Positions 3,531-29,090 of a stretch of 64,000 nucleotides of DNA are shown here, piece by piece; position 1 is the first letter of the stretch; each line of letters starts with the position of its first letter. Made by a program: the position numbers and the translations under genes. Under the pieces are notes generated by a model. That model was not told the origin of the DNA, did no database searches, and saw only the letters and a program-made list of their open reading frames with translations. This stretch comes from Methylotenera versatilis 301 (GTDB taxonomy: Bacteria; Pseudomonadota; Gammaproteobacteria; Burkholderiales; Methylophilaceae): positions 62,001 through 126,000 of the forward strand of contig NC_014207.1 of NCBI RefSeq assembly GCF_000093025.1. The letters are read 5' to 3'.

Positions 3531-3556
3531 CTGATATTAAGATAATTTAATATCAG
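3531..3556. terminator. AT-rich hairpin at the end of the cytochrome c gene
   Basis: Perfect 10-base arms CTGATATTAA (3531-3540) and TTAATATCAG (3547-3556) enclose a 6-base loop. The hairpin overlaps the stop codon of the cytochrome c gene (3553-3555). There is no T-run on the exit side, so it may be a weak terminator, an mRNA 3' stabiliser or a pause site. Confidence 0.4.
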
Positions 3557-3933
3557 TGCTGCTGTGATAAAAACTGTATGACATCAGCACATTTTTGCGG
3601 GTCTTTTAGCCCCGGAAAAGCCATTTTCACCCCTGGCAGCAATCCCTGGGGGTTTGTAATATAAGTAGAGATTCTATCTTCTGTCCATATTATGTCATTC
3701 TTACGCATAGCATCTGAATAGTTAAAGTCGCTAATGCTGGCAGGCTTTCTTCCCACGACATTCCAAAGTGAGGGACCAATTTTATTTTTGCCCTCTGTAA
3801 TACTGTGGCAGTCTGAACAGTACGTGTTAAATACACGCATACCATTTGCGGCATCACCAGCATAGGCTGTCTGGACATTAATGATGGCTTCGACAACCTG
3901 AAAGCTTAAAAATAGTAACGTATAACTTTTCAT
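3553..3933 (-). CDS. Class I monohaem cytochrome c, periplasmic
   Basis: A 126-residue protein with a signal peptide (cleavage after TAYA, about residue 25) and one haem site, CSDCH (Cys39, Cys42, His43). KIGPSLWNVVGRKPAS and the GVKMAFPGL segment, whose Met104 is the likely sixth haem ligand, are typical of cytochrome c2/c550-like class I cytochromes. It is a soluble periplasmic electron carrier. It lies 17 bases downstream of the fused haem-porin gene on the same strand, so the two are very probably co-transcribed, and it is the obvious candidate to take electrons from that outer-membrane protein. The pairing is inferred from position. Confidence 0.9.
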   Translation of the reverse strand: MKSYTLLFLSFQVVEAIINVQTAYAGDAANGMRVFNTYCSDCHSITEGKNKIGPSLWNVVGRKPASISDFNYSDAMRKNDIIWTEDRISTYITNPQGLLPGVKMAFPGLKDPQKCADVIQFLSQQH

Positions 3934-3950
3934 TTTTACATGTCCATTTT

Positions 3951-5300
3951 TTAAATCGCAAACCAGGCAAATATAAATGTTGTGTTGTTGTCCTTTGCGT
4001 CTCGACCCAAGCCATCATAATCATTTTTAGCGCCATTAAATTTGGTATAACCCGTGTATTGAATGCCTAAACGCATATTAGCAAAAGGGGCTCCCCAAGA
4101 ATTTTCTTTACCCCAAGGGGTCCAGTCGGCTTGAAGAATATAGCCGCGGCTATTTGGCGAGCCGTTGATGCTGCCAGAGTCTGCCTCACCGTTGTTATAC
4201 AAAGTATCATCCTGATTTCCACGAATATCAAAAACCGCTGCAGTGACGCCATAAGTGTTTTTGTAGGTATAGCTGCCAGCTAAATCAAAACGTTTGAGCG
4301 TGCCATGTAAATGACTTGCACCACCTCCGTCGAAAGCATTATTTAAAGTCCTGCGTTCGTTGATATAGCTAGTGCTTATGGTAAAAATATGTTCCTTAGT
4401 GCCCATATATTGATAAGCCGCATCCACACCGATATCTCGATAGTTGTCCGTTGGACCACTCATAAATTCAGGCTGAAGCCTTGATGACATACCAAATAAA
4501 CCTACACGGAAATTCTGTTCAGTCATATCGTTGAAGTAAGTTAAGCGCCAATATGGTGCAATACCATCAAGTCTGCCATCTTCACCAACATTCAATTTAT
4601 TTCTGATGCTTCTTGATAGCGTTTTATATCCACCCAATTCAGCATAAAAATGATCGTCATAGAATCCGTAAGCACTGACGCCAATTACCTGCTGCTCTAA
4701 TGCGCCATTAATGAACGGTGAAGCTTCTGGGCCAGGTGCTAGCTCAGAGGCCATATATGGAAATATCCATCCACTCAAGGTATTGAATGGGTCTTGAATT
4801 GTTGGATTGTTGTTAATTGATATACCGTAAGTTAAGTTCTTGCCTGAAATCGGTTTTGAATCCGCAAATCGAATATCCATATTGTCCATGCCAAATCTTT
4901 GATCAAAATCATTACCTGTCACTTGTATAAAGGTACCAATATGATCTGTCATTCTGCCTGCTAGAAATATGGATAACTCTTGCAGTGATAGGTTATCGTT
5001 TTTACCGAAATGTGGTTGAGCATCTTCCGTCAGGCTTTTATTGGTATGAGTAAAGCCCTCTACCAGCATGGCGGCTACAGGTATTTTGCCTTCTTTACCA
5101 TCCGTCTCGGTATAACCACCTAGTTTAAAATGCATACCATGAGGAGTGAGCTGCGGACCAAAAGCACCCACATGACAAGCAGCACATTCTAGGCCTGTTT
5201 GCCTTGCAAAGCTTGGTACAGCATGTGTATAGGCGCTGAATGCAACCAAGTTGATAATAAAAAAAGTTTTTAATAATGGCGCTAATATTCGAAATTTCAT
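3951..5300 (-). CDS. Cyc2-like fused cytochrome-porin (monohaem outer-membrane protein)
   Basis: A 449-residue protein with a signal peptide (to about residue 27), then a conserved block starting VPSFARQTG, a haem site CAACH (Cys39, Cys42, His43) and PQLTPHGMHFKLGGYT. About 400 residues of alternating polar/hydrophobic, aromatic-rich sequence follow, ending NTTFIFAWFAI, as expected for an outer-membrane beta-barrel. A small N-terminal cytochrome fused to a porin, with FARQTG before the haem, is the layout of Cyc2, the outer-membrane Fe(II) oxidase of iron-oxidising bacteria, and of a wider family of unknown substrates. The start at 5300 is chosen because GGAG (5307-5310) lies six bases upstream; an upstream in-frame start at 5348 would add 16 residues. 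A periplasmic cytochrome c gene follows 17 bases later. Barrel topology and Fe(II) use are inference. Confidence 0.75.
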   Translation of the reverse strand: MKFRILAPLLKTFFIINLVAFSAYTHAVPSFARQTGLECAACHVGAFGPQLTPHGMHFKLGGYTETDGKEGKIPVAAMLVEGFTHTNKSLTEDAQPHFGKNDNLSLQELSIFLAGRMTDHIGTFIQVTGNDFDQRFGMDNMDIRFADSKPISGKNLTYGISINNNPTIQDPFNTLSGWIFPYMASELAPGPEASPFINGALEQQVIGVSAYGFYDDHFYAELGGYKTLSRSIRNKLNVGEDGRLDGIAPYWRLTYFNDMTEQNFRVGLFGMSSRLQPEFMSGPTDNYRDIGVDAAYQYMGTKEHIFTISTSYINERRTLNNAFDGGGASHLHGTLKRFDLAGSYTYKNTYGVTAAVFDIRGNQDDTLYNNGEADSGSINGSPNSRGYILQADWTPWGKENSWGAPFANMRLGIQYTGYTKFNGAKNDYDGLGRDAKDNNTTFIFAWFAI

Positions 5301-5605
5301 CATATTCTCCAATTTTAATTTTTGGAACGCATTATCTTTAGAAAACAATATTTTTACATGCTATTCAAATGCCAATACAAAATTCTAGCAATACAGTTAA
5401 CACCTTAGTTTTATGTGCGTGCTTCTTATATATTAATGCCGTCACTAGAGTTTAAAATATGATTTTGTAGCTAAAATAACTGCAAATTGCAGTCTTACTT
5501 AGTTGGAAATCTTGGCGCGCAGTGGAGCCATTTACTATATATCTGATGCCCTAAATTAAATGGATTTTTAACTCTTGATAATAAAAAATTTATATCTTGA
5601 TAAAA
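5301..5605. other. Promoter region of the cytochrome-porin operon
   Basis: AT-rich sequence between the divergent cytochrome-porin gene and the damaged DJ-1 operon. It must hold the promoter for the minus-strand operon, with GGAG at 5307-5310 as its ribosome binding site. I see no coding sequence, and no promoter hexamers I would defend. Confidence 0.3.
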
Positions 5606-5632
5606 AACTAGTAGACAACTGGTCTACTAGTT
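5606..5632. promoter_or_regulatory. Perfect TetR-type operator palindrome
   Basis: Two perfect 11-base arms, AACTAGTAGAC (5606-5616) and GTCTACTAGTT (5622-5632), flank a 5-base centre. The inner TAGAC-N5-GTCTA core has the size and symmetry of operators bound by TetR-family repressors of the NemR kind, which control electrophile-detoxification genes. It stands 14 bases before the first codon of the truncated DJ-1/PfpI gene. No tetR gene is in the window. Assignment to a regulator family is inference. Confidence 0.6.
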
Positions 5633-5646
5633 GACAAAGTGCTTAC

Positions 5647-6174
5647 ATGCATACTGAAAATAACAACCTTGATGTCCGCCAGCATACATTGGAAACTGCC
5701 TCAGAAGCGCAATCTGCACTTGCCAGCACCTTATCTCTGCAATCGATAAGTCTTGACGATTTCGATGCGGTATTTTATCCAGGCGGTCATGGACCATTAT
5801 GGGATCTGGCTGAGGATAAAAGCTCAATCGACTTACTAGCCAGCGCATTAGCAAGCAATAAACCTGTAGCACTGGTGTGCCACGCGCCTGGTGTTTTAAG
5901 GCATGTAAAAAATCCAGATGGCACACCAGTAGTAAAGGGCAAGAAAGTGACTGGCTTCAAAAATTCGGAGGAAGCTGCTGTTGGATTATTAGAAATTGTA
6001 CCGTTCCTAGTAGAAGACGAACTTATCAGTAGGGGCGGGCAGTATTCTAGCGCTTCTGATTGGGCATCTTATGTTGTCAAGGACGGTAATCTTATTACTG
6101 GGCAAAATCCTGCCTCTTCTGCAGAGGCGGCTAGACAGCTCTTACTTTTAATCAGTGAAAGTGTTCGACCATGA
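5647..6174 (+). pseudogene. DJ-1/PfpI-family protein lacking its N-terminal ~50 residues
   Basis: The 175-residue open frame is clearly a type 1 glutamine-amidotransferase-like DJ-1/PfpI protein: AVFYPGGHGPLWDLAED, the nucleophile elbow ALVCHAPGVL (Cys78) and KVTGFKNSEEAAVGL. Family members are about 225 residues, and the alignable part begins near their residue 50. The first strand-helix units, including the conserved acidic residue that pairs with the catalytic cysteine, are missing. An in-frame stop at 5632-5634 and the operator at 5606-5632 lie immediately upstream, so the lost segment is not present in that frame. There is no good ribosome binding site before the ATG at 5647. It overlaps a DUF1330 remnant by ATGA. 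Most likely a deletion relic; if made, it is unlikely to be a normal enzyme. Confidence 0.7.
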
Positions 6175-6317
6175 GTGCTTATGTCGTCATGATACGAGAG
6201 CGTACATTGGATCAGGAAGCAGTGAAGCATCGTCACAAGGGTGCTGAGTACCGTGTTTTAATCGTTGAAGGGGGGACTAACAATCTTTCGAATTTTTGTG
6301 TGGCACAGCGAGTATAA
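6171..6317 (+). pseudogene. DUF1330 gene with internal in-frame deletion
   Basis: A 48-codon frame starts at the ATG overlapping the DJ-1 stop. It begins SAYVVMIRERTLD, the N-terminus of DUF1330 proteins, then jumps directly to EAVKHRHKGAEYRVLIVEGG, their C-terminus. The middle of the usual ~95-residue domain, with its histidine, YG and WY motifs, is absent, as though some 50-60 codons were removed in frame. A 14-residue tail follows before the TAA. Too short for usual gene-calling limits. Together with the truncated neighbour it indicates a decayed small detoxification operon. Confidence 0.65.
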
Positions 6318-6417: not shown

Positions 6418-6870
6418 CTAATGATGGATGTATTCAGCAACTTCAGTCAAATGGCCTTTGTCAGAAAAACGTACAATCACCGACTGCTTTTGTCTTAGCT
6501 GTATTAACTGGTTTTCTTGCAGTTTAAATAGTTTCGCTATTTCTCTTACAGAGACTGGTGTGTTATCAACACGCCTTGCTGAATCTTTAAACCGGAATCG
6601 TTCGATGTTTGCCCATCCAATAAGCGTGACACTGAGTATTACAACTATCGCCGAATATAAGCCTAGTTTACCAATTACTCCAGCATATCCATGTAGCTCA
6701 ACAATTTGTAAGTGGAACAGCTTCACGCCTATCCACCAAGCTAGAAGCGTGATAAATGGTAACCATAAGTATATATATAGCCCCCAGAAAAAAAGTGTAA
6801 TTGAGCTCCATCCAAATCGATGCGCGTGTGATTGTAGTTCTGGTTTTTCTATAATTAATGATTTACTCAT
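6418..6870 (-). CDS. pgaD: PgaD, poly-beta-1,6-N-acetylglucosamine synthesis accessory protein
   Basis: A 150-residue inner-membrane protein with two transmembrane segments (about residues 24-50 and 66-90) and a cytoplasmic C-terminal tail. This is the PgaD layout, including the PELQS motif near the start and WANIERFRFKD after the second segment. PgaD binds PgaC and is needed for polymer synthesis; in Escherichia coli the complex is activated by cyclic di-GMP. It overlaps pgaC by four bases and ends the pgaABCD operon. Length is close to the 137 residues of E. coli PgaD. Confidence 0.88.
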   Translation of the reverse strand: MSKSLIIEKPELQSHAHRFGWSSITLFFWGLYIYLWLPFITLLAWWIGVKLFHLQIVELHGYAGVIGKLGLYSAIVVILSVTLIGWANIERFRFKDSARRVDNTPVSVREIAKLFKLQENQLIQLRQKQSVIVRFSDKGHLTEVAEYIHH

Positions 6871-8138
6871 GGATTAGTCCTATTCTGATGGATGCCACGG
6901 TCTGGACTGGTCCAGGTGGCGCGTTTATTACGATCTTTGATTAGTGCAGCTGGCAGGCCAACAATGGTAGTCGCTGCTGAGAGTAACCAGAACAGCATTG
7001 GATACCATATCATCCAGTAATAGTAACGACGGATTTTTGGCTCATAACGGCTATCGATAAATAGGCTTAATGCGAATTGCAATAAGCATGTCATCGCAAG
7101 TAGCACGCCGTTCCATTCCGGGATAATCGTCTTGATATAAAGAGATGAAGGTAAGTCAACAAACTTCCCCAGCCCCCATAACAAAAAGATGGCACACATC
7201 ACGTATGCCCAAATAATACTGACGACTAACTCAGCATAGACAGGCCACATGCGACGTTTTTTAACATTTAAAAATATATTCTTGAATTTAAGTAAGACTT
7301 CCGCGCCACCCTGCGCCCAACGCACACGTTGCTTCCATAGCCCTTTAAGCGTTTCTGGCATGAGTATCCAACAAAGTGCATTGGGTTCGTATCGAACATC
7401 ATAATAATTAGTCTGCATCTTCCAGCTGATATCAATATCTTCAGTCACCATGTTGGTGCTCCAGTAGCCCACTTCATGTAATGCAGATTTGCGGAATGCT
7501 GCCACTACGCCAGAAACAGTAAACACCCGACCATAAACGCGTTGCGCACGCTTAATGAGCCCAATCACTGATGAGAACTCACCCACTTGTAATTTACCAA
7601 GCATCGTGGAGCGATTACGGATTCTTGGGTTGCCTGTCACAGCACCCACTCTTGAACTGGAGATAAAATGCCGCACCATCCATGTAATACAGTTTGGATC
7701 AAGTACTGCATCGCCATCTATACAAACGAGGTACTCGCTGGATGACAACATCGCACCCATAGTTAACGCCATTGCTTTACCCTGATTGCTGGCTAATTGA
7801 ACGGCTTTAACCTTGGCGTGCTTAGATGCAATGTCATTAATGATGTCCGCAGTGTTGTCGCTGCTGCCATCATTAATGGCAATAATGTCGTAGTGCGGAT
7901 AGTTCAGCTGAAGTAATGCGCCTATAGTTTCGTAAGCGTTATCGCCTTCGTTAAAGCAGGGTACCAATACACTTACATGCGGGTACTCGGGCAGTACTGG
8001 GGGGGCGTTATATAGCGGCTCGTTTTGTTCTTTACTAAAATAAAAATAGAGTGCTCCGGCCATCCATAAGTAGGCCATAAACAAGGGATAATAGAAGGCA
8101 AAGCCTAATAACCAATCGAGTATATCTTGGTACCACAT
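6867..8138 (-). CDS. pgaC: PgaC, poly-beta-1,6-N-acetylglucosamine synthase (GT2)
   Basis: A 423-residue membrane glycosyltransferase that polymerises UDP-N-acetylglucosamine into PNAG. One or two N-terminal membrane segments precede the GT2 domain (VSVLVPCFNEG). The catalytic motifs are present: DGDAVLD (DxD), MVTEDIDISW (TED) and QRVRW (QxxRW). C-terminal membrane helices follow (about 300-400). Length and order match PgaC of E. coli (441 residues). The gene lies between pgaB and pgaD on the minus strand, overlapping pgaD. A ribosome binding site AAGGA lies about 13 bases before the ATG. Confidence 0.95.
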   Translation of the reverse strand: MWYQDILDWLLGFAFYYPLFMAYLWMAGALYFYFSKEQNEPLYNAPPVLPEYPHVSVLVPCFNEGDNAYETIGALLQLNYPHYDIIAINDGSSDNTADIINDIASKHAKVKAVQLASNQGKAMALTMGAMLSSSEYLVCIDGDAVLDPNCITWMVRHFISSSRVGAVTGNPRIRNRSTMLGKLQVGEFSSVIGLIKRAQRVYGRVFTVSGVVAAFRKSALHEVGYWSTNMVTEDIDISWKMQTNYYDVRYEPNALCWILMPETLKGLWKQRVRWAQGGAEVLLKFKNIFLNVKKRRMWPVYAELVVSIIWAYVMCAIFLLWGLGKFVDLPSSLYIKTIIPEWNGVLLAMTCLLQFALSLFIDSRYEPKIRRYYYWMIWYPMLFWLLSAATTIVGLPAALIKDRNKRATWTSPDRGIHQNRTNP

Positions 8139-8179
8139 CTTAAGTTTTTTCCTTAAATTTCATGTCTGTGCAACGGCAT

Positions 8180-10144
8180 TTATTTACTTTTTGGTAAATA
8201 TGGAAAATTACGCGATGAAATGTAAGGGCGAATAACCTCCATTTCAGGTTGGTTGTGCAGAAAATCATCAGGGTAATAACCCATATGAATCGCACCAGCC
8301 TGACTAAGTGTTTGCATCTCCTGCTTTAGTATTTCAGACTTGATGGGGCGCTTTGATTTCCAGTCAGTTGCTTGCAGCTCAAAAACCGTTTTTTGTAATC
8401 CATTTTTAGTAAGCTTCGCTTGTGCGACTAATGACTTCAACCAAGTATCTGGATTTGCTACGTTTTCCATCAATGGCATCGCCATTACCGCGGTGTAATC
8501 ATAATTTGCAATGAAATCTCGATAGTTTTGACTTAACCAGCGCTCACTGGCGGGGTTTAATAATGCTGGAGCGTATAAATTGCGCGCTGTTTTTAATTCT
8601 GGTTGATAGCGTTTCAGTTCTTTAGCTAAATCTGACGTGAACTCAATGAGATATTGACTTTTTAGTGCGGCTAACTTAGCCGCTTGCGTAGGGTTTTGGT
8701 TAATTTCTGTAATGTTAGCGCCTACAAGTTTGAAGCCTTTTTGATAATAAGCTCTTGCGTACTCGCTATCGTCTTCAGATTCTGAAAATACCGCATCATC
8801 ATGAAAAAGTACGCCAGAGAACTTGGTATATGCACCAAGATCGCTGTAAATCTCTTTGATAATCTGCTTAGCTTCTGGTGAAAATGGCGTTAAGCGTTTA
8901 TAAGAGGCTTTATCAGCCGATGGTTGCGCGGAAACCACTTGTAGCATTTGCTGCTTCTGTTTGTCTTTTAATTCGAAAGCCAGAACTGGCATCCATGCAT
9001 ATACTTTGACGTTAGCGCGTGTCATCAACTGCCATGCCACTCGACCAAAGAGATCTGCACGCATGTCGACATGGCGATTGGGGAAATAGACGGCTTCAGC
9101 CACTCCGTCACCATTAGTGTCTGAAAAAGCCTGTAAATAAACGGTGGTAGGAGCCAGTGACTTTACACGATCTAATAATAAGTCGAGATTCTTGCTCAAT
9201 TGCTCAGGGTGATCATCGTAGACATAATCTAAATCGATATGCATGGCCCGCTGTTTATCTAAATTAGGCTCATGTCTTTCAATCTCAGCCAGGCGCATTT
9301 CTGATGGGTTGCCATCAATTAAAAAGCGCGCTACTTGTGTTAAGTTGTTGGCCTGTGCTTGTTCCGCTTCGCTTAAATTTAGTGTGATGGGCATGCCTGT
9401 TTCATTAGCAACTTTTGATGCAATTGCATTATTTGCACCATATGGCCACACCATAACTCTGGGCTGTTTGCCCGTAATGCGCTGGATTACCGCATTATTT
9501 TTAATGAAATCTTGCTTAATGCGAGTGCGATAGTTTTCGCGGGACTCATAAGTTTTAGTGGTTGAGTCATATTGCAAAGTCACTGCCGCAGCAATCATAT
9601 TGCCTTGCGGGTTAGCTAAAATACCGTGATGCAAATCAAAGCTATGTGAGGCAAACTCTACTAAACCAGAATCAGCCATTTCTTTAATTTGTGCTGTTGA
9701 TAGGAAGTGCTCACGTGGTACTAGATCATCACCGTACTTTACAGTTCCGCCAGTTTTCACTTCTAGCCAGCTACCGACTAGTGCAGCAACAGCAGGGTAT
9801 TGATATAACTTAAGTAGTGGATAAGCCCGTGAATACAAGCTTTCATAACCGTCATCAAATGTCAGTAAAACCGGTTTGCTAGGTAAAGATTTTTTACCGG
9901 CTTTAGCATCCAACAAATCATTAATACTGATAGGATGATAACCATGCGCCTGAATCCAGGCAAAATGACGTGCCAGATTTTTAGTTGAAATGGTCGTGGA
10001 CTCTTGCTCTAGGTCACCATCAACACTGTCTCTTACATCATGATAGCTAAATACCTCAAATGTTTGCGTGCCAGCAAAATTTGTCGTTGCGAGAGCGCTA
10101 GTGTTAGCCAGCAGTAATAATACGTAGAAGAATATTCTGATCAT
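8180..10144 (-). CDS. pgaB: PgaB, PNAG N-deacetylase
   Basis: A 654-residue exported enzyme that partially deacetylates PNAG for export. It has a signal peptide (about 1-20), a carbohydrate esterase 4 NodB-like domain (about 25-290) with LLTFDDGYESLY and the SHSFDLHHG histidine motif, and a C-terminal TIM-barrel-like hydrolase domain (about 295-640) with DLDYVYDDHPEQ and LFHDDAVFSE. E. coli PgaB is a lipoprotein; here no cysteine follows the signal peptide (TSALATTNFAG), so it may be soluble or membrane-tethered in another way. The gene starts one base after the end of pgaA. Confidence 0.93.
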   Translation of the reverse strand: MIRIFFYVLLLLANTSALATTNFAGTQTFEVFSYHDVRDSVDGDLEQESTTISTKNLARHFAWIQAHGYHPISINDLLDAKAGKKSLPSKPVLLTFDDGYESLYSRAYPLLKLYQYPAVAALVGSWLEVKTGGTVKYGDDLVPREHFLSTAQIKEMADSGLVEFASHSFDLHHGILANPQGNMIAAAVTLQYDSTTKTYESRENYRTRIKQDFIKNNAVIQRITGKQPRVMVWPYGANNAIASKVANETGMPITLNLSEAEQAQANNLTQVARFLIDGNPSEMRLAEIERHEPNLDKQRAMHIDLDYVYDDHPEQLSKNLDLLLDRVKSLAPTTVYLQAFSDTNGDGVAEAVYFPNRHVDMRADLFGRVAWQLMTRANVKVYAWMPVLAFELKDKQKQQMLQVVSAQPSADKASYKRLTPFSPEAKQIIKEIYSDLGAYTKFSGVLFHDDAVFSESEDDSEYARAYYQKGFKLVGANITEINQNPTQAAKLAALKSQYLIEFTSDLAKELKRYQPELKTARNLYAPALLNPASERWLSQNYRDFIANYDYTAVMAMPLMENVANPDTWLKSLVAQAKLTKNGLQKTVFELQATDWKSKRPIKSEILKQEMQTLSQAGAIHMGYYPDDFLHNQPEMEVIRPYISSRNFPYLPKSK

Positions 10145-10145
10145 T

Positions 10146-12602
10146 TTAAAACAGTAGGTTTAACCTAGAAAAAAATTGGGTAGAGAGTTCATTTGTGCCG
10201 TCGTAGGGGTGGCGACTACGTGTTATTCCATAGTCGATTTCAAAACGATCATCCCATTTGAACTGTTGTTCATAGCTCATCATCCACGTTAAATCTGAGC
10301 CAAAGTTCTTTTGCCAATAATCACCTGCGCCCAATTGAAGACGATGGCTGAATGATCGATCATAGCGACGCCACAATATCCATTCATTATCAAGAACAGC
10401 GCTAGTATCTAAATCACGCTCTGGATTGAAGTAGATGGCATCATTTTTATCGTTGCGAGAGGCATCGACACGAAGATGTGTGGTCAATTTATAATGAGGT
10501 TGAGTGATTAATCTTTTATCAAATTGAAGGTTAAGCGCTTCTCGATGATTGCCATCACTAATATTCATGTAACTAAAGCCTGCAGATGCGCTCGTGAGAT
10601 CGCTCCAGCGATATACAGCACTCGCACTTGCTAAATCACCACTTGCACCTGTTTTTAGTCCACGCAATGGCATTTGAGTTGAATTAGCATCTAATGCAGC
10701 GGCGAAAGACCAATAATCATTTAAACGATAATCGGCGGTGATTGCAGCAGTAATGCCGATATCAGACAAGCTAGCCTGACTGATTTCACCCGTTAAACGC
10801 CAATCTCTGTTGGTGTATTCCATACCAATACCAGGATAGACAACATTCCCAGAGCCTTCTGGAAACGTCGCATGATCATATTGCGTACTTACAAATGCAC
10901 GATAGTTGTAATCAATAGGGCTTGAATATAAAACAGCGTTTAAACCTTGTGTACGACTGCCAAAAGTAGAACCAGAGGACTTGCTGCCAAACCCATCAAC
11001 TGTTAACTGACGTTCGTTATGTAACATCCAACGGCGATCAAGCGCTTGTACAGAGGCATTCTCCGGATACTCTTTTACTAGCGGCTTGATTTCACTCTCT
11101 GCAACTTGCCAATCACGCAAATCAAGGTGAGTGTTAGCTAAATCAACTTTAGCTTGTAATAGATCTGGGTAATCTCCGCTAATTTCTGAAAAACGTTGTT
11201 CAGCCTGCTCTGGCCAACCACGCCAACGCCAGATTTCACCTAGAGCCATCCTGACATCATTGTTCATTGGCCCAATATTGTTCAATGCTTGAAAATGTTG
11301 TTCAGCCGTGTCTAAATCATTGCCATAGGCAAGCACATAGAATGCTTTACTGTCAGCATCCAACTTGTTGCTATCTTGTCTTATGATAGGATTCTTGGGT
11401 CTTTGCCTATAAGCAGAGGTGTTTTTTGACAGGTCATTGATGAGTGCAGTAGCTTCCTCAAACCTCTCTAAATCAACTAAGGTATAGAATTTAGAAAACT
11501 TAGTCTCATTATTATCAGGATCTTTTTGCATAGACACGCTGTAAACTTTGATGGCCTCTTCAGGCATCCGTTTATATAAATAAGCATCACCAACTGCATT
11601 TAATACATAAGCCGGCGGGTCAATTTGGGCATTAAGTAGCTCTTCATAAAGCGAGATGACCTCTTGCATGCGATAACGATCACGCAACGCCACTATTCGG
11701 TCAAATGCTAAGTTCTTGTTGATACCTGAGTTCAAATCCAGCTTATTCCAGTCGCATTTGCATGCTTCATCTAGCTTGACCAGTGCCTTGTCAGTATCTT
11801 CAAAACGCTCTGCTGGATTTTTAGGGCTGTAATGACCCCATGCAATATATTGCGCTGCGCTATCGTTATTGATTTTATCAATTTCACTTTTATCAATAGC
11901 ATTCGGGTATTGCTCAGCTAATGCCAATGCTTGCGGTATTGCACCGGCCTCTCTTGTGGCCTGAATTAGTGCACGAGCCGCTTCCAAATCCTGATGATTT
12001 AATGCTAACAAACGCGTATTAGCATCAATCACGATGACTGGTTGCTTGGATTGCTGACCATAATAAGAAAGTGCTCGATAAACATCTGCATTATTAGAAT
12101 ATTGTTGGCGTAGCTTTGTTAATTCTGACTCGGCTTCTGTAAATTGCTTTGCATCGATGCGCGTGAGCACTTTGCCTAATAAGGGATCTAGTTTATTAGG
12201 GTCGCGCGCAATTAATTGCTCGTAATAAGCTATTGCAGTTGCAAACTGATTTGTATTTCGTGCTGCTTTTGCTAAAACACTCAGGCAGTAGCTAGGAATA
12301 GCTTTAGTATCCATATCCGCTGCAACAGCTAAGGCTTCTTGTTCTTTTTTAGCCCATGTAAGAATCACGATGTAATCAGCTTTAATGCCAACATCGTTGG
12401 GTGCTTCTTTCACCATCGTGGCAAAGGCCGGTATTGCAATTTCATATTTGCCATCACGCGCTATTTGCAATGCGGCATGACGGCGCTCACCCAAACTCGA
12501 TTGCGAGGAGGGTGTTTCAGCAGCGGAGGCTGATTGATCTATGGTTGCCCCTAGCAGCACTAGGGCAGTGATTGGATGGATTATGTTTTTAAAATATTGC
12601 AA
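10146..12602 (-). CDS. pgaA: PgaA, PNAG outer-membrane export porin
   Basis: An approximately 818-residue outer-membrane protein that exports deacetylated PNAG. The N-terminal half is a chain of tetratricopeptide-like repeats (about residues 30-480). The C-terminal ~300 residues are a beta-barrel (TQGLNAVLYSSP to the final FFSRLNLLF, ending in the aromatic residue usual for barrels). I prefer a TTG start at 12602: AAGG lies eight bases upstream, and it gives a normal signal peptide ending SASAAE. An in-frame ATG at 12665 would add 21 residues with acidic and cysteine residues that do not suit a signal peptide. First gene of the pga operon. Confidence 0.9.
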   Translation of the reverse strand: MQYFKNIIHPITALVLLGATIDQSASAAETPSSQSSLGERRHAALQIARDGKYEIAIPAFATMVKEAPNDVGIKADYIVILTWAKKEQEALAVAADMDTKAIPSYCLSVLAKAARNTNQFATAIAYYEQLIARDPNKLDPLLGKVLTRIDAKQFTEAESELTKLRQQYSNNADVYRALSYYGQQSKQPVIVIDANTRLLALNHQDLEAARALIQATREAGAIPQALALAEQYPNAIDKSEIDKINNDSAAQYIAWGHYSPKNPAERFEDTDKALVKLDEACKCDWNKLDLNSGINKNLAFDRIVALRDRYRMQEVISLYEELLNAQIDPPAYVLNAVGDAYLYKRMPEEAIKVYSVSMQKDPDNNETKFSKFYTLVDLERFEEATALINDLSKNTSAYRQRPKNPIIRQDSNKLDADSKAFYVLAYGNDLDTAEQHFQALNNIGPMNNDVRMALGEIWRWRGWPEQAEQRFSEISGDYPDLLQAKVDLANTHLDLRDWQVAESEIKPLVKEYPENASVQALDRRWMLHNERQLTVDGFGSKSSGSTFGSRTQGLNAVLYSSPIDYNYRAFVSTQYDHATFPEGSGNVVYPGIGMEYTNRDWRLTGEISQASLSDIGITAAITADYRLNDYWSFAAALDANSTQMPLRGLKTGASGDLASASAVYRWSDLTSASAGFSYMNISDGNHREALNLQFDKRLITQPHYKLTTHLRVDASRNDKNDAIYFNPERDLDTSAVLDNEWILWRRYDRSFSHRLQLGAGDYWQKNFGSDLTWMMSYEQQFKWDDRFEIDYGITRSRHPYDGTNELSTQFFSRLNLLF

Positions 12603-12964
12603 ATCTTTACACCTTGCATCATCAAAAGCGTCTAATTTATTGAGTGATTCAGTACATTTGCACACCTAAATACCGCATATATTCGCGCCCATTCTTGATT
12701 TCGGGTTTTATGTCGGTATCGGCAGCTGTACTTTGTTCAAATAAATTAATGAATTTCATCGAAAATGTCAGTAATTTAGAATACGAGCGCAATATATATG
12801 AAATGCATATTTTGTGTATGTATACGCGCAAAGAAATTACACAACTTTACAGTTACGACTTTATCGTTGAAGTTGGAGGGTTGAAGTTATGATGGCGTGG
12901 GAGTATTGGTGTCGATATGCTTCTAGCTTTATTTAAGAATTCAAATAAAAGCTGATTAAATAAA
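12603..12964. other. Promoter region of pgaABCD and spacer to the catalase terminator
   Basis: AT-rich non-coding sequence upstream of pgaA. Small open frames on both strands have no recognisable content. The pga promoter must lie here, but I cannot assign hexamers with confidence. Confidence 0.3.
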
Positions 12965-24341: not shown

Positions 24342-25379
24342 ATGAGTTATCAAATCACCATAAAATCTACTCAACATACCTACACCGCAAAAGCATCAGA
24401 AACAGTGCTGGAATCCGCCATAGGTGCGGGTGTGAATATTCCATACGGCTGTCGCAATGGTACTTGCGGTAGTTGTAAGGGCGATATTATTTCAGGCGAA
24501 GTGGATTATGGGGACTATGCATCAAGCGCGCTGACTGGTGCAGAAAAAGCGGCAGGTAAAGCACTTTTCTGCTGCGCACATCCCCTGACAGATTTAACGA
24601 TAGAGTGCCGTGAGATTCATGCAGATGTTATTCAGCCAAGAATTTTGCCTGCACGTGTAGAGCGTAAAGAGCAACTTTCACATGATGTGATGGCGTTGTT
24701 TTTAAAGTTGCCAAGTACTGAGCATCTCAAATTTATGGCAGGGCAATACATCGAGTTTTTGCTTAAAGATGGTAAACGACGCGCTTTTTCACTGGCTAAT
24801 GCGCCGCATGTAGATAACCTATTAGAGCTGCATTTACGTTTGATTCCGGGCGGGCAATTTACTGAATACGTATTTAACGAAATGCCAGACAAAGCTATCT
24901 TGCGCATAGAAGCTCCATTCGGCAGCTTTTTCTTAAGGGAAGAGTCAGACAAACCCATCATCATGGTTGCTGGCGGCACGGGTTTTGCGCCGATTAAAGG
25001 CATTATTGAGCATATGTTGCATAACAATATCAATCGCCCGGTGACTTTATATTGGGGGGCACATAGTTTGAAGGATCTTTACATGCCAGCGCTCCCAGAG
25101 GCTTGGGCAAAAGAATATCCGCACATTAAATTCATTCCCGTGTTATCTGACGCTACCTCAGAAGACAACTGGCAAGGCCGCACAGGCTATGTGCATCAGG
25201 CCGTGCTAGAGGATTTCGCCCAAACAGGTTTAGCTGACTATGAAGTATATTGCTGTGGCGCGCCAGCCATGGTGGCAGTCGCACACGCCAGTTTTGTAGA
25301 AGCTGGTTTGCCAGAAGATGAATTTTTCTCAGATGCATTTAATTATGCAAAACCAACACCTAAAGCCACCGCCACTTAA
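24342..25379 (+). CDS. 2Fe-2S ferredoxin/flavin NAD(P)H reductase (CDP-6-deoxyglucoseen reductase-like)
   Basis: A 345-residue electron-transfer protein with three domains. A plant-type 2Fe-2S ferredoxin (about 1-92) has the cluster cysteines in YGCRNGTCGSCKG plus the later FCC cysteine. An FAD domain (about 100-200) has RAFSLANAP. An NAD(P) domain (about 205-340) has MVAGGTGFAPIKG and YCCGAPAM. The architecture is that of oxygenase reductases and of AscD, after which this betaproteobacterial group is often named. No dideoxysugar genes are nearby, so that name should not be taken literally; the acceptor is unknown. Confidence 0.85.
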   Translation: MSYQITIKSTQHTYTAKASETVLESAIGAGVNIPYGCRNGTCGSCKGDIISGEVDYGDYASSALTGAEKAAGKALFCCAHPLTDLTIECREIHADVIQPRILPARVERKEQLSHDVMALFLKLPSTEHLKFMAGQYIEFLLKDGKRRAFSLANAPHVDNLLELHLRLIPGGQFTEYVFNEMPDKAILRIEAPFGSFFLREESDKPIIMVAGGTGFAPIKGIIEHMLHNNINRPVTLYWGAHSLKDLYMPALPEAWAKEYPHIKFIPVLSDATSEDNWQGRTGYVHQAVLEDFAQTGLADYEVYCCGAPAMVAVAHASFVEAGLPEDEFFSDAFNYAKPTPKATAT

Positions 25380-25400
25380 TATATTGTTGATTAATAAAAC

Positions 25401-25429
25401 CAATCTTAATGAATAAGGATTTAAGATTG
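25401..25429 (+). terminator. Hairpin downstream of the flavin reductase gene
   Basis: Nine-base arms CAATCTTAA (25401-25409) and TTAAGATTG (25421-25429) enclose an 11-base loop, 22 bases after the reductase stop. There is no T-run, so termination would be weak. The second arm overlaps the direct repeat described at 25420-25436, so this may equally be part of the regulator site. Confidence 0.4.
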
Positions 25430-25452
25430 CGTTAAGAATTCAACACTATGAT
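25420..25452 (+). promoter_or_regulatory. PmrA/QseB-type box and promoter of the SHP cytochrome operon
   Basis: The direct repeat TTTAAG (25420-25425), five bases, then GTTAAG (25431-25436) has the 11-base period and sequence of the PmrA/QseB box (CTTAAG-N5-CTTAAG; six and five matches allowing C/T at the first base). A possible -10 element TATGAT follows at 25447-25452, which places the repeat over the -35 position. An OmpR-family regulator of this type is encoded in the same operon (27067). Autoregulation is inference. Confidence 0.55.
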
Positions 25453-25487
25453 TTGCTCCATACCCTAATAAAAGGAGCAAATCATGG
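25446..25487 (+). promoter_or_regulatory. Inverted repeat that would pair with the ribosome binding site and ATG of the cytochrome b gene
   Basis: ATGATTTGCTCC (25448-25459) is the exact reverse complement of GGAGCAAATCAT (25474-25485), with a 14-base loop; a G-U and a C-G pair extend it to 25446-25487. The 3' arm holds both the GGAG ribosome binding site and the ATG at 25484. A transcript containing both arms would hide its start. The 5' arm overlaps the proposed -10, so transcripts from that promoter would lack it, while read-through mRNA from the upstream gene would have it. Confidence 0.6.
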
Positions 25488-26122
25488 AAACCATCACATA
25501 CCAAAGAAAAAAGGTCTATGACCCCATTCTGCGGCTGATTCACCTCTGGAATGGCTTGGCCATTCTCTTCCTTATGACCACCGTTTGGCTCTCTGACCTT
25601 TTTGAAAAAGGCGCTGGAGAAAAAATGCTGTGGCATCTTCACATTTACATAGGCTATGGACTAGTTGTTGGCATTGTCGCTCGGCTAGCATGGGGCATTG
25701 TAGGCTCTCGCCATGCAAGGTTTTCTGATATGTGGCATCCAATCGTTTGGTGGGATGCGGTACGCAACTTTAACCTGCAAGCCAAACCTCGTTTTGGACA
25801 CAATACTTTAGCTAGTGGCGTTTATCTGTTGGTTTATTTATTGCTGATTACGATGGCGATTACGGGTCTTTCTCTTGCTGCAATTGAGCATAGCATGGGG
25901 CCGCTTAATGCTTGGATAGGTGACATGCCGTGGTTGAAAGAAATTGTTGAGGAGCCGCATGAGTTTATCTTTTACCTGTTAATGGGTTTTGTAGTGATTC
26001 ATATCGCAGCACTTATTTGGCATGAGCGCAAAGATAAAACACCGCTTGCGCAAGCGATGGTCACTGGTTACCAATATGAGGTTGAGCAAAGTAATTTAAA
26101 TGAAGGAGATCATCATGCGTAA
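25484..26122 (+). CDS. Cytochrome b561 family membrane protein of the SHP operon
   Basis: A 212-residue inner-membrane dihaem cytochrome b with four membrane helices. Candidate haem histidines lie in RLIHLWNG, MLWHLHIYIGYG and FVVIHIAALIWHE, as in hydrogenase-type/b561 cytochromes. It probably passes electrons between the quinone pool and the periplasmic cytochromes encoded next. First gene of an operon continuing with an SHP-like cytochrome, a dihaem cytochrome c, a response regulator and a sensor kinase. The ATG at 25484 has a clear GGAG, which is part of the inverted repeat at 25446-25487. Confidence 0.88.
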   Translation: METITYQRKKVYDPILRLIHLWNGLAILFLMTTVWLSDLFEKGAGEKMLWHLHIYIGYGLVVGIVARLAWGIVGSRHARFSDMWHPIVWWDAVRNFNLQAKPRFGHNTLASGVYLLVYLLLITMAITGLSLAAIEHSMGPLNAWIGDMPWLKEIVEEPHEFIFYLLMGFVVIHIAALIWHERKDKTPLAQAMVTGYQYEVEQSNLNEGDHHA

Positions 26123-26522
26123 TTCATTTTATTTATTAGGGTTAATTTTTAGTATGAATGCATTTGCAGCAACGTCCCAAGAGCTGCTCAAGCAATATGA
26201 AGTGCAAGCTAAGCAAGAGAATACAGCTTTTGCAGGATTCTCGGCTGAACGTGGAGCTAGCTTTTTTAAAGCAGAACGTACGCATAGCGATGGTAAAAAA
26301 GTGAGCTGTGCAACTTGTCACACTTCAGATCCGCGTAAGCAAGGTAAAACTCGTGCTAACAAAGTGATTGAGCCGATGGCGACTATTGCTAATCCTCAGC
26401 GTTTTACTGATGCAACTAAGGTGGAAAAATGGTTTGGTCGTAATTGCAAAGATGTGCTGGAGCGTGCTTGTACGGCTCAAGAAAAAGGCGACTATATTCA
26501 ATATTTAACCAGCGTGAAGTAA
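26115..26522 (+). CDS. SHP-like (DUF1924) monohaem cytochrome c
   Basis: A 135-residue periplasmic cytochrome with a signal peptide (MRNSFYLLGLIFSMNAFA) and one haem site, CATCH. The following TSDPRKQGKTRANKVIEPMA and the pair of later cysteines (NCKDVLERACT) match DUF1924, the family of sphaeroides haem protein (SHP), an oxygen-binding cytochrome with an unusual asparagine ligand. The start at 26115 is fixed by AAGGAG six bases upstream; an ATG at 26100 lies before that site. It overlaps the end of the cytochrome b gene and precedes the dihaem cytochrome gene, the standard SHP gene set. Confidence 0.85.
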   Translation: MRNSFYLLGLIFSMNAFAATSQELLKQYEVQAKQENTAFAGFSAERGASFFKAERTHSDGKKVSCATCHTSDPRKQGKTRANKVIEPMATIANPQRFTDATKVEKWFGRNCKDVLERACTAQEKGDYIQYLTSVK

Positions 26523-26529
26523 AGGCGAT

Positions 26530-27057
26530 ATGATGAAAAAATGGATGCAACTCTTGGTATTAATAACTAGCATTACTTCAGCTGGAACGCTATTGGCTAG
26601 TGGTGGTTTTGGCGAAGGTGGCGAAAGCCATGGCAGTCAAATGCCAGTAGTCAATAACGCAAAATGGAAATCAGAATGTAGCAGTTGCCATATGCTTTAT
26701 CATCCAGCTTTATTGCCTGAGCGCTCATGGAACAAAGTAATGGCAGGGCTAGATCAACATTTTGGCGAAAATGCGAGTTTGGATACTGCAGCGCATGATG
26801 AAATTGCTAAATTTTTAGCAGAAAATAGCGCAGACAAGCAAGCCAATCGCCGTTCAAATCGTATTAATCAATCTATTCCTGCAGCTGCGACGCTAATTCG
26901 AATTAGTGAAACACCTTACTTTGTAGCCAAGCATGACGAGGTTTCTGCTAATACTTTTAAACGTAAAAGCATAGGCAGCCCATCAAATTGTATCGCTTGT
27001 CACAAAGGCGCAGAAAAAGGTGATTTTTCTGAGTCGCAGGTTAAGATTCCACGTTAA
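26530..27057 (+). CDS. Dihaem cytochrome c (DHC)
   Basis: A 175-residue exported cytochrome with two haem sites: CSSCH (about residues 50-54) and CIACH near the C-terminus (about 158-162). The spacing between them and the YHPALLPERSW segment after the first haem match DHC, the partner of SHP. The signal peptide ends near LLASGG. Two adjacent ATGs (26530, 26533) are possible starts; AAAGG fits the second slightly better. It probably carries electrons between the cytochrome b and SHP. It lies seven bases after the SHP gene. Confidence 0.88.
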   Translation: MMKKWMQLLVLITSITSAGTLLASGGFGEGGESHGSQMPVVNNAKWKSECSSCHMLYHPALLPERSWNKVMAGLDQHFGENASLDTAAHDEIAKFLAENSADKQANRRSNRINQSIPAAATLIRISETPYFVAKHDEVSANTFKRKSIGSPSNCIACHKGAEKGDFSESQVKIPR

Positions 27058-27066
27058 TATAATCGA

Positions 27067-27732
27067 ATGAGAGTTCTATTGGTAGAGGACGATGCCCTGC
27101 TGGGCGATGGCGTACGAGCTGGCTTGAAGCAAGCAGGATTTGCTGTAGATTGGACACAAGATGGACAAGCCGCAAAACTAGCGCTAGAAACTGAAGAATA
27201 TGCATTGATGGTGCTAGATTTAGGTTTGCCTAAGTTAAGTGGTATCGATGTGCTTAAATGGCTGCGAGGTGCCAATTTAGCTCTACCAGTGCTTGTGCTT
27301 ACTGCACGAGATACGGTTGCTGACCGGGTGATTGGCTTGAATGCTGGCGCTGATGATTATCTAATCAAACCTTTTGATTTAGATGAATTGATTGCGCGAT
27401 TGAATGCTTTACTGCGTCGCAGCGCTGGTCAAGTCACACTCACTTTGCAACATGGTGACATTGAATTGACGCCCTCTACACACCAAGTGAGTAAAAACGG
27501 TCAAATAGTTGAGCTTGCCGCGCGCGAATTTTCCTTGTTTCATGAACTTTTGCTACATGCTGGTCGTGTGCAATCACGCGAGCAGTTAGAGCAGCATCTT
27601 TATGGCTGGGGCGAAGAGGTTGAGAGCAACTCGGTAGAGGTACATATTCATCACTTGCGCAAGAAATTAGGCTCCGCATTGATTCGAACCATACGAGGTG
27701 TTGGTTATGTGATAGATAAGGAGTCAGCATGA
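27067..27732 (+). CDS. OmpR-family response regulator (QseB/PmrA group)
   Basis: A 221-residue regulator with a receiver domain (about 1-115) and a winged-helix DNA-binding domain (about 125-218). The phosphoacceptor is Asp51 in LMVLDLGLP; the acidic pocket EDD (residues 7-9) and Lys101 in LIKPFD are intact. The C-terminal ending IRTIRGVGYVID is typical of QseB/PmrA/TctD-type regulators. It lies nine bases after the dihaem cytochrome gene and overlaps the sensor kinase start by four bases, so it should regulate this operon. The signal is unknown; redox or oxygen would suit the cytochromes. Confidence 0.93.
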   Translation: MRVLLVEDDALLGDGVRAGLKQAGFAVDWTQDGQAAKLALETEEYALMVLDLGLPKLSGIDVLKWLRGANLALPVLVLTARDTVADRVIGLNAGADDYLIKPFDLDELIARLNALLRRSAGQVTLTLQHGDIELTPSTHQVSKNGQIVELAAREFSLFHELLLHAGRVQSREQLEQHLYGWGEEVESNSVEVHIHHLRKKLGSALIRTIRGVGYVIDKESA

Positions 27733-29090
27733 GTATGAAATCATTGCGATTGCGTCTAGTGTTGCTATTGTCTGTTGGGCTAGGCGTAGCTTGGCTAGTG
27801 GCTGCATGGTTTACTCACCTAGAGTCACGAGAAGAAATCAATCGATTATTTGATGCGCAACTTGCCCAATCTGCTCAGGTGCTGCTTGGTACAACGCGTC
27901 ATGAGATACACGAACGTATTGAACATGGTGAAGATGAAATTCAAGTTTCACACGAATATGAACAAAAATTAGCTTTTCAAATTTGGGATGAGCATGATTT
28001 GTTATTACGTTCTACGACTGCGCCCACTACTGCTATGACCGCTAAAGGGGGATATAGCAACACCATTATCAGCGGTCAACCGTTGCGTGTATTCACTAGA
28101 TGGGATACGAATCATGAGTTTATGATTCAAGTTGCTCAGCCGCTAGCAGGGCGAGAGTCTTTAGCGCGCCACATTACAATCCGGATGCTGATACCTACGT
28201 TGGCCGCTTTGCCAGTACTGGCGTTACTGATTTGGTTTGGCATTAGTACGGGCTTGAGACCTCTGCAGCGATTAAAACATGAGGTTACAGAGCGTGCAGC
28301 AAAGCAGCTTGAACCGCTCGCAATGATGGATGTGCCCGATGAGGTTCTACCATTAGTAAAGTCGCTTAATGAATTATTTGCACGTTTAGAATACGCCTTT
28401 GAAGGCGAAAGACGTTTTACAGCTGATGCCGCACATGAACTGCGCACGCCACTCGCGGCGCTTAAAATTCAAGCGCAAGTGGCATTACGTTCTACCAATA
28501 AAGCAGAACGCAATGCTGCATTGGAGAATGTTCTACATGGCGTTGATCGTGCGACTAGATTGGTTGAGCAGTTACTTACTTTGGCTAGAATAGACCCAGA
28601 AGCCGCCGCCGCAGGTTTTAAGCAAGTTGACTTACAGGGCTTAGCTGCGACTGCGATGGCTAATTTAGAGCCTTTAGCACGTGCAAAGCACATTGAAATG
28701 CTGCTTGAAGAAGGGCAAACTTGTTACATGTTTGGAGATGATGTTCAACTTGGGTTATTGCTACGTAATTTGTTAGATAATGCTATTCGTTATTCACCTG
28801 CAGGTGGTCTAGTGTCCATCAAAGTGACTCATATTAATGGTGTTCACTTAGAGGTGCGTGACACTGGGCCAGGGATTCCTGAGGTTGAGCGCGAGCAAGT
28901 GTTACAACGTTTTTATCGCATCTCTGGTAGCGGTGAAGAAGGTAGTGGGCTCGGTTTGTCGATTGTCCGTCGCATTGTTGAGTTGCACGGAGCAAGGCTA
29001 GAACTTACTGATAGTGAATCAGGACAGGGATTGTTGGTACGAGTGATTTGGCCTAATCCCCAACCTGATGCTACAGACCATTTACTCTAA
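27729..29090 (+). CDS. Sensor histidine kinase (QseC-like)
   Basis: A 453-residue inner-membrane kinase. Two membrane helices (about 8-27 and 152-175) bracket a periplasmic sensor region of about 125 residues, followed by a short linker. The dimerisation/phosphoacceptor motif is FTADAAHELRTPLAALK (H-box). The ATPase domain has the N-box LLRNLLDNAIRYSP, the G1 motif DTGPGIP and the GSGLGLSIV G2 box. All are intact. The overlap with the response regulator gene shows they form one pair. Confidence 0.93.
   Translation: MSMKSLRLRLVLLLSVGLGVAWLVAAWFTHLESREEINRLFDAQLAQSAQVLLGTTRHEIHERIEHGEDEIQVSHEYEQKLAFQIWDEHDLLLRSTTAPTTAMTAKGGYSNTIISGQPLRVFTRWDTNHEFMIQVAQPLAGRESLARHITIRMLIPTLAALPVLALLIWFGISTGLRPLQRLKHEVTERAAKQLEPLAMMDVPDEVLPLVKSLNELFARLEYAFEGERRFTADAAHELRTPLAALKIQAQVALRSTNKAERNAALENVLHGVDRATRLVEQLLTLARIDPEAAAAGFKQVDLQGLAATAMANLEPLARAKHIEMLLEEGQTCYMFGDDVQLGLLLRNLLDNAIRYSPAGGLVSIKVTHINGVHLEVRDTGPGIPEVEREQVLQRFYRISGSGEEGSGLGLSIVRRIVELHGARLELTDSESGQGLLVRVIWPNPQPDATDHLL

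Follow-up and report, generated by a model that had tools for sequence, protein, structure and literature searches.

A Cyc2-like cytochrome-porin and its c550-type partner in Methylotenera versatilis 301: a predicted single-haem conduit with quinone-linked relatives

Background

The presence of Cyc2 serves as a genomic sign of iron oxidation, and a gene pair in Methylotenera versatilis 301 raises the question of whether a Cyc2-like protein in a user of methanol and methylamine does the same work, or offers a simple way of moving other electrons across the outer membrane. The pair lies in a window of 64,000 nucleotides, the whole stretch of DNA analysed here (contig NC_014207.1, positions 62,001 to 126,000). 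A sequence-only reading of this window had described a Cyc2-like cytochrome-porin with its own periplasmic cytochrome, had named Fe(II) oxidation as one option, and had suggested an unrecognised route for electrons in a methylotroph. The last suggestion does not stand, because a Cyc2-like gene and possible extracellular electron transfer (EET) in Methylotenera have been published (He 2017, 2019): passages of PMC5566968 place M. versatilis 301 among bacteria with Cyc2-like genes, and passages of PMC6344600 suggest Fe(III) or humics as possible electron acceptors for methyl-group oxidation in Methylotenera that carries Cyc2 and porin-cytochrome genes. The published M. versatilis 301 gene may be either the window gene or its paralog at 2057331-2058686. 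The gene family, its presence in the strain and its adjacency to small cytochromes or HiPIP are already in print; we report here the two genes, their motif, the predicted barrel, the clade and a gene module found in relatives. For two aspects of that module, the replacement of b561 by NapC and the two-component association, a literature search with supplements, preprints and most subscription journals outside its scope found no account among the matches listed, and in the two papers listed as naming both 'Cyc2' and 'cytochrome b561' the b561 passages concern other matters.

Results

Two adjacent genes on the minus strand

Both genes and the gap between them are as first described, and both lie on the minus strand, which the sequence-only reading had not given. 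The upstream gene (3951..5300) encodes a Cyc2-type fused cytochrome-porin of 449 aa, assigned from its translation, AlphaFold2, Foldseek and trees; a second in-frame ATG stands at 5303, 3 bases upstream of the start, preceded by GGAG. The hydrophobic N-terminus holds a putative signal peptide (residues 1-27, 5220..5300, minus strand, cleavage after THA by inspection), within which the structural model has a helix at residues 6-24. The motifs then run in the order AVPSFARQTG-LE-CAACH-VGAFG-PQL, with the AXPXFAR[Q/K][T/Y] element, here AVPSFARQT, at residues 27-35 (5196..5222, minus strand) and the CXXCH haem site CAACH at residues 39-43 (5172..5186, minus strand), and about 400 residues follow this single CAACH. 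A Pfam search with the porin gave no match up to E 1, NCBIfam gave none near its cut-off, and comparison with the PDB by sequence found no relative, weak cellulosome matches alone appearing at E 0.1 or worse. A chance open reading frame was rejected: of the 399 genomes searched in the order, 74 have relatives at E ≤ 1e-10 (own genome and other subfamilies counted), and an alignment of the window protein with 54 relatives (55 rows) shows 27 invariant columns. Both cysteines and the histidine of CAACH are invariant in that alignment, in part by selection, as the scan patterns included CH or PSFARQTG.

The second gene, encoding a class I (c2/c550-type) cytochrome c of 126 aa (3553..3933, minus strand), begins 17 bases past the porin stop, downstream. 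It matches Pfam PF00034 (E 5.8e-8), and among proteins of solved structure it is closest in sequence to cytochrome c2 and mitochondrial-type cytochrome c (1hro, E 1.1e-27). Translation and alignment place its CXXCH haem site, CSDCH, at residues 39-43 (3805..3819, minus strand). This motif and a putative axial-ligand Met are kept in 56/56 c550 partners, a set that includes G loci, some of which copy named loci.

A predicted 16-strand barrel

The fold prediction that the sequence-only reading had proposed as a check supports the layout that it described. AlphaFold2, run with the 55-row alignment, gave a confident model of the porin (mean pLDDT 88.6, pTM 0.86) with three short N-terminal helices downstream of the signal helix and 16 main strands, which span residues 75-448 (3957..5078, minus strand). 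The best Foldseek matches in the PDB are OmpT, AlgE, MOMP, Omp32 and porins of the OmpF/OmpC type, with E down to 5.4e-9; the TM-scores of the 50 matches listed are modest, 0.35-0.49 when normalised by query length. Most of these porins are 16-strand barrels, AlgE and MOMP having 18. Keffer et al. likewise predicted 16 strands for PV-1 Cyc2 (PMC8406198). We infer haem occupancy, an outer-membrane location and electron transfer for the porin.

Kinship with Cyc2

The text of Keffer et al. 2021 (PMC8406198) gives rules for recognising Cyc2, and against these the window porin has AVPSFARQT upstream of the haem where AXPXFAR[Q/K][T/Y] is expected, a single CXXCH, 449 residues where at least 365 are asked for, an N-terminus that by eye resembles a signal peptide and, by prediction, the 16-strand porin fused to a cytochrome. 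The rules place PXL four residues past CXXCH, and the window PQL sits after five. That spacing of five is found in 41/42 members of the clade described below and one of four in 13/13 Cluster-1-like rows. Together, the motif, the predicted barrel and the conserved gene pair support the layout originally read from the window, a Cyc2-like fused cytochrome-porin with its own periplasmic cytochrome. A methionine of the barrel, M78, separates the same groups: it is kept in 40/42 rows of the c550 clade, 25/26 rows without a detected partner and 17/19 others, and is present in 0/13 Cluster-1-like rows. That M78 serves as the sixth haem ligand is a guess.

For the phylogeny, a set of 122 porins (the window protein among them) was reduced to 100 rows by an identity threshold of 80%. 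Since rows were chosen by the FAR-CXXCH motif and by length, the invariance of that motif among them is without meaning. The rows do not cover all 80 named loci: twelve are absent, of which four are copies of G loci and eight failed the filter (L084, L086, L103, L115, L136, L144, L145, L147). A careful tree of 68 of the 100 rows put the window porin in a c550 clade with support 99/97, whose 42 rows all have c550 apart from L097; the purity of this clade is partly a matter of choice, because L024, L101 and L098 were left out of this tree, and in the quick tree L024 and L101 fall inside the c550 clade, yet no c550 was detected beside either. A HiPIP-bearing clade is sister to the c550 clade (joint support 99/96).

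The five Cluster-1-like rows of the careful tree stand apart with support 100/100, and the identity of the window porin as a Cluster 1 (neutrophilic FeOB) Cyc2 was rejected on this ground; the label Cluster-1-like is itself inferred, from motif spacing and from 11/19 matching genomes belonging to one family, the tree holding no named Cyc2 reference. The Fe(II) oxidase option is accordingly unsupported as such, and Fe(II) stays among the possible substrates.

Distribution and paralogs

The distribution of the porin looks patchy. Matches at E ≤ 0.001 occur in 17/61 genomes, among them 11 of the 37 within the genus (own genome included), and the window type with GPQLTP is found in 3/37 genus genomes, namely the own genome, G011 and G014. 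The paralog in the own genome (L065 7326-8738) is a second cytochrome-porin, 35% identical and without an adjacent cytochrome c. It reads FSRQTG and CASCHLSYGEL, lacks the proline of PXL and sits on a long branch; it adjoins a gene that resembles YncE weakly, below the Pfam cut-off, and a two-component pair lies about 2 kb off. Another genome of the genus (G001) carries a Cluster-1-like Cyc2 (L016 1450-2700, CHFQHFPTLN) with, by eye, a c4-like cytochrome gene behind it, and this gene is the better candidate Fe(II) oxidase within the genus.

A quinone-linked module in relatives

We compared the neighbours of the best 80 of 569 relatives listed, which we call the named loci and to which the following counts refer; they are not independent, several coming from Zoogloea, Dyella or Rhodanobacter. 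A gene scored as a neighbour if a phmmer match at E ≤ 1e-6 lay no more than 1.2 kb away (4.2 kb in the case of two-component genes), and the loci that were read first supplied the search seeds. In 49/80 a c550-like gene adjoins the porin. Either b561 or NapC accompanies 39 of these 49 c550 loci against 1/31 loci without c550. Within the 49, 31 have b561, eight have a NapC/CymA-type tetraheme cytochrome and none has both; over all 80 the counts are 32, 8 and 0, the additional b561 belonging to L097. Upstream sequence is shorter than 1 kb in L080, L084 and L107, which belong to the ten loci that have c550 and no quinone cytochrome. Two-component genes show the same association, lying near 33/49 c550 loci against 1/31 others.

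Pfam searches on ten sampled proteins confirmed 4/4 b561 (PF01292), 2/2 NapC (PF03264), one regulator and one c550, and found 2CSK_N in 2/2 kinases. In sets that again include G loci, some copying named loci, four His are present as b561 haem ligands in 35/35 and two in 34/35, and four haem motifs are present in 9/10 NapC, the tenth being cut by a contig end. The two cytochromes have replaced one another at least four times over 34 rows in both trees, as would be expected from a shared role in linking to quinone. Unrelated cytochromes that swap in one slot would most simply share contact with the quinone pool. The relatives within the genus illustrate both forms: G011 (L048), whose porin is 75% identical, has a b561 gene before the porin and c550, and G014 (L049), 59% identical, has a NapC-type tetraheme gene before the pair and a two-component system behind.

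In the sister group the partner differs. A HiPIP gene adjoins the porin in 11/31 loci without c550 (six Dyella, four Rhodanobacter, one Thermomonas) against 0/49 with c550, and PF01355 was confirmed on one HiPIP, that of L108. A HiPIP beside Cyc2 is described in passages on Bradyrhizobium (PMC5566968), and HiPIP forms part of the iron-oxidation wiring of acidithiobacilli in PMC10715153, its role left unresolved in the passages concerned.

The pair in its own genome

M. versatilis 301 has four b561 genes above the Pfam cut-off, none adjoining the pair; a search of its genome for NapC gave no match, and no two-component genes are adjacent to the window pair. The own-genome b561 that best matches that of G011 is 33% identical and adjoins a YceI-like ORF (by eye), not a porin, and was rejected as a partner. 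The slot in which G011, the closest relative, has b561 is occupied here by a decayed duplicate. The module of M. versatilis 301 may therefore have lost its quinone link, and the pair may be a degraded module, because the adjacent b561 of its nearest relative is absent.

The duplicate itself (about 5536-6225) corresponds, at 89-90% identity, to a segment near 955 kb with a TetR-like gene (by eye) and a DJ-1/PfpI gene, and an internal deletion fuses the regulator's first codons in frame to the PfpI gene (ORF 5647-6174, PF01965). It contains a perfect palindrome, CTAGTAGACAACTGGTCTACTAG (5608-5630), expected 0.01 times per window. A second site, differing at one position, stands roughly 35 bases ahead of the intact TetR-like gene at 955 kb, and for this reason the palindrome may be a putative operator of that gene; a reversed control pattern likewise has one genome site.

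Near the pair, at 6867-12665, Pfam identifies genes for a PgaA-type barrel, a GHL13/polysaccharide deacetylase and a glycosyltransferase, which we take to be a poly-N-acetylglucosamine biofilm set. Further along, at 24342-29090, are genes for a reductase (Fer2/FAD/NAD), a b561, a diheme cytochrome (DHC), a response regulator and a 2CSK_N kinase. Passages of PMC3728764 report m301_0064-0069 as over-expressed in situ. A rough ORF count, in which the pair is ORFs 42-43 and the 24342-29090 cluster 61-66, suggests that these genes are probably that cluster and probably not the window pair.

Discussion

A proposed single-haem conduit and its direction

We consider it likely that the cytochrome-porin and its c550 form a minimal conduit across the outer membrane, in which a single haem connects an extracellular partner with a periplasmic cytochrome c. 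The porin would be a 16-strand outer-membrane barrel whose small N-terminal domain holds one covalently bound haem, and electrons would cross it one at a time, with a soluble redox compound as partner at the cell surface and the co-encoded c550-like cytochrome as partner in the periplasm. In most c550-bearing relatives the adjacent b561 or NapC/CymA-type membrane cytochrome would give the pair access to the quinone pool. With no b561 or NapC adjacent and no NapC match in the genome, the c550 of M. versatilis 301 would probably trade electrons with the general periplasmic cytochrome c pool, which would be fed by methylotrophic dehydrogenases and drained by oxidases.

The direction of flow is harder to call. 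Net export, either as respiration or as a way of discharging electrons onto Fe(III) chelates, humics or the like, is favoured slightly, at an even chance, because of the quinone link and of the heterotrophic life of many carriers. Export by Cyc2-type proteins has precedents in the proposal for Methylotenera in PMC6344600 and in PMC10715153, which describes the Fe(III)-reduction pathway of acidithiobacilli as composed of Cyc2 and Cyc1 isoforms. Uptake, which we find doubtful, would fit HiPIP and a partner of the c2/c550 type, both of which typically donate electrons to oxidases or reaction centres, and it would fit the Fe(II) oxidation by the three characterised Cyc2 proteins. The neighbours leave the direction unfixed, since those Cyc2 proteins oxidise Fe(II) and the NapC-family ImoA can work in iron oxidation (PMC13390463), NapC relatives working both ways. 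RuBisCO was rejected as a marker of direction, being matched in 23/47 relatives' genomes (47 of 50 loci were searched, L109, L140 and L146 being omitted as copies of G loci), with 11/30 for the b561 type, 5/7 for NapC and 7/10 for c550 alone (one of them weak, 1.8e-19). Its absence is weak evidence because many of these genomes are incomplete MAGs.

Alternative explanations

In one alternative the porin would be a genuine Fe(II)-oxidising Cyc2, whose haem would take electrons from dissolved Fe(II) and hand them through c550 to a terminal oxidase. All three biochemically characterised Cyc2 proteins, one per published cluster, oxidise Fe(II) (PMC8406198), RuBisCO occurs in some of the genomes with the module, ones that bear the names Thiobacillus, Parasulfuritortus or Gallionellaceae, and it is matched in most of the genomes with c550 and no quinone-linked cytochrome. 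The separation from FeOB-like sequences argues the other way, as does the lack of a RuBisCO match in 19/30 b561-type genomes (many of them incomplete MAGs) and in a search of the M. versatilis 301 genome; moreover, electrons bound for an oxidase need no quinone link. We regard this reading as rather unlikely for the window pair, and as improbable a further one that takes its cue from the regulators. Here a two-component system would switch on a leak from quinol to the surface, either to dispose of excess electrons or to reduce a toxic oxidant or metal there. Such a valve would suit the matches to a response regulator and a histidine kinase that lie near the pair in two thirds of the c550 loci, as well as the 2CSK_N domain of both sampled kinases, and electrons drawn directly from quinol would bypass proton-pumping steps. 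Against it, no metal-resistance gene was recognised by eye in the ORF clusters common to at least 8/49 loci (unannotated, with many shadow ORFs), and the window pair stands without adjacent two-component genes.

An ordinary substrate porin with a structural or vestigial N-terminal haem domain would explain why the model matches general porins. It would leave unexplained the invariant Cys and His of the haem site, partly selected as these are, and a gene partner that is repeatedly a redox protein (c550, a c4-type diheme cytochrome or HiPIP), and we give it very little weight. The conduit of porin and c550 remains the reading that we prefer. More tentatively, the window gene could belong to a distinct class of quinone-linked, single-haem EET systems that work mainly outward, with the HiPIP loci as a sister class; with the same reserve, we would describe that class as a two-component system, b561 (or NapC by repeated replacement), c550 and cytochrome-porin, carried by many heterotrophic and phototrophic Proteobacteria. 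On that view the conduit family would be a broad one, with Cyc2-mediated Fe(II) oxidation as one special case within it. A Cyc2-like clade found beside quinone-linked cytochromes in Zoogloea, Accumulibacter and Derxia, which to our knowledge are not known as iron oxidisers, would make some calls of iron oxidation wrong on substrate or direction. The module would also be an EET system small enough for an expression test in E. coli.

Comparison with known systems

In chains of b561 and diheme cytochrome c (DHC), a b561 tied to quinone accompanies a c cytochrome of the periplasm and a two-component system, and an outer-membrane component is absent; that absence distinguishes them from the module, and one such cluster is the 24342-29090 cluster of the window. 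MtrAB, MtoAB and PioAB with CymA or ImoA share with the module an outer-membrane barrel with a haem conduit, a periplasmic carrier and a NapC-type quinone link. The window porin falls outside that group, having one haem site, fused to a barrel of 16 predicted strands, in place of a separate decaheme cytochrome and a barrel for which PMC10654088 gives 26 strands. Acetobacteraceae Cyc2 with an adjacent mono- or diheme cytochrome represents the same pairing of cytochrome-porin and small cytochrome genes, and the passages of PMC10715153 that describe the pair name no b561 or NapC partner. The Cyc2 cluster of Bradyrhizobium, which also encodes HiPIP and three periplasmic cytochromes (PMC5566968), resembles the sister clade in its HiPIP adjacency; the window clade, with c550 and no HiPIP, is set apart from it by description. 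With the Cluster 1 Cyc2 of Mariprofundus ferrooxydans PV-1 (PMC8406198) the window porin shares AXPXFAR[QK][TY], one CXXCH, a PXL and 16 predicted strands, and its putative N-terminal export signal would be a further common feature. It differs in belonging to a clade separate from the Cluster-1-like rows, in the five residues rather than four before PXL, in keeping M78, which no Cluster-1-like row has, and in its c550-like partner, joined in relatives by b561 or NapC.
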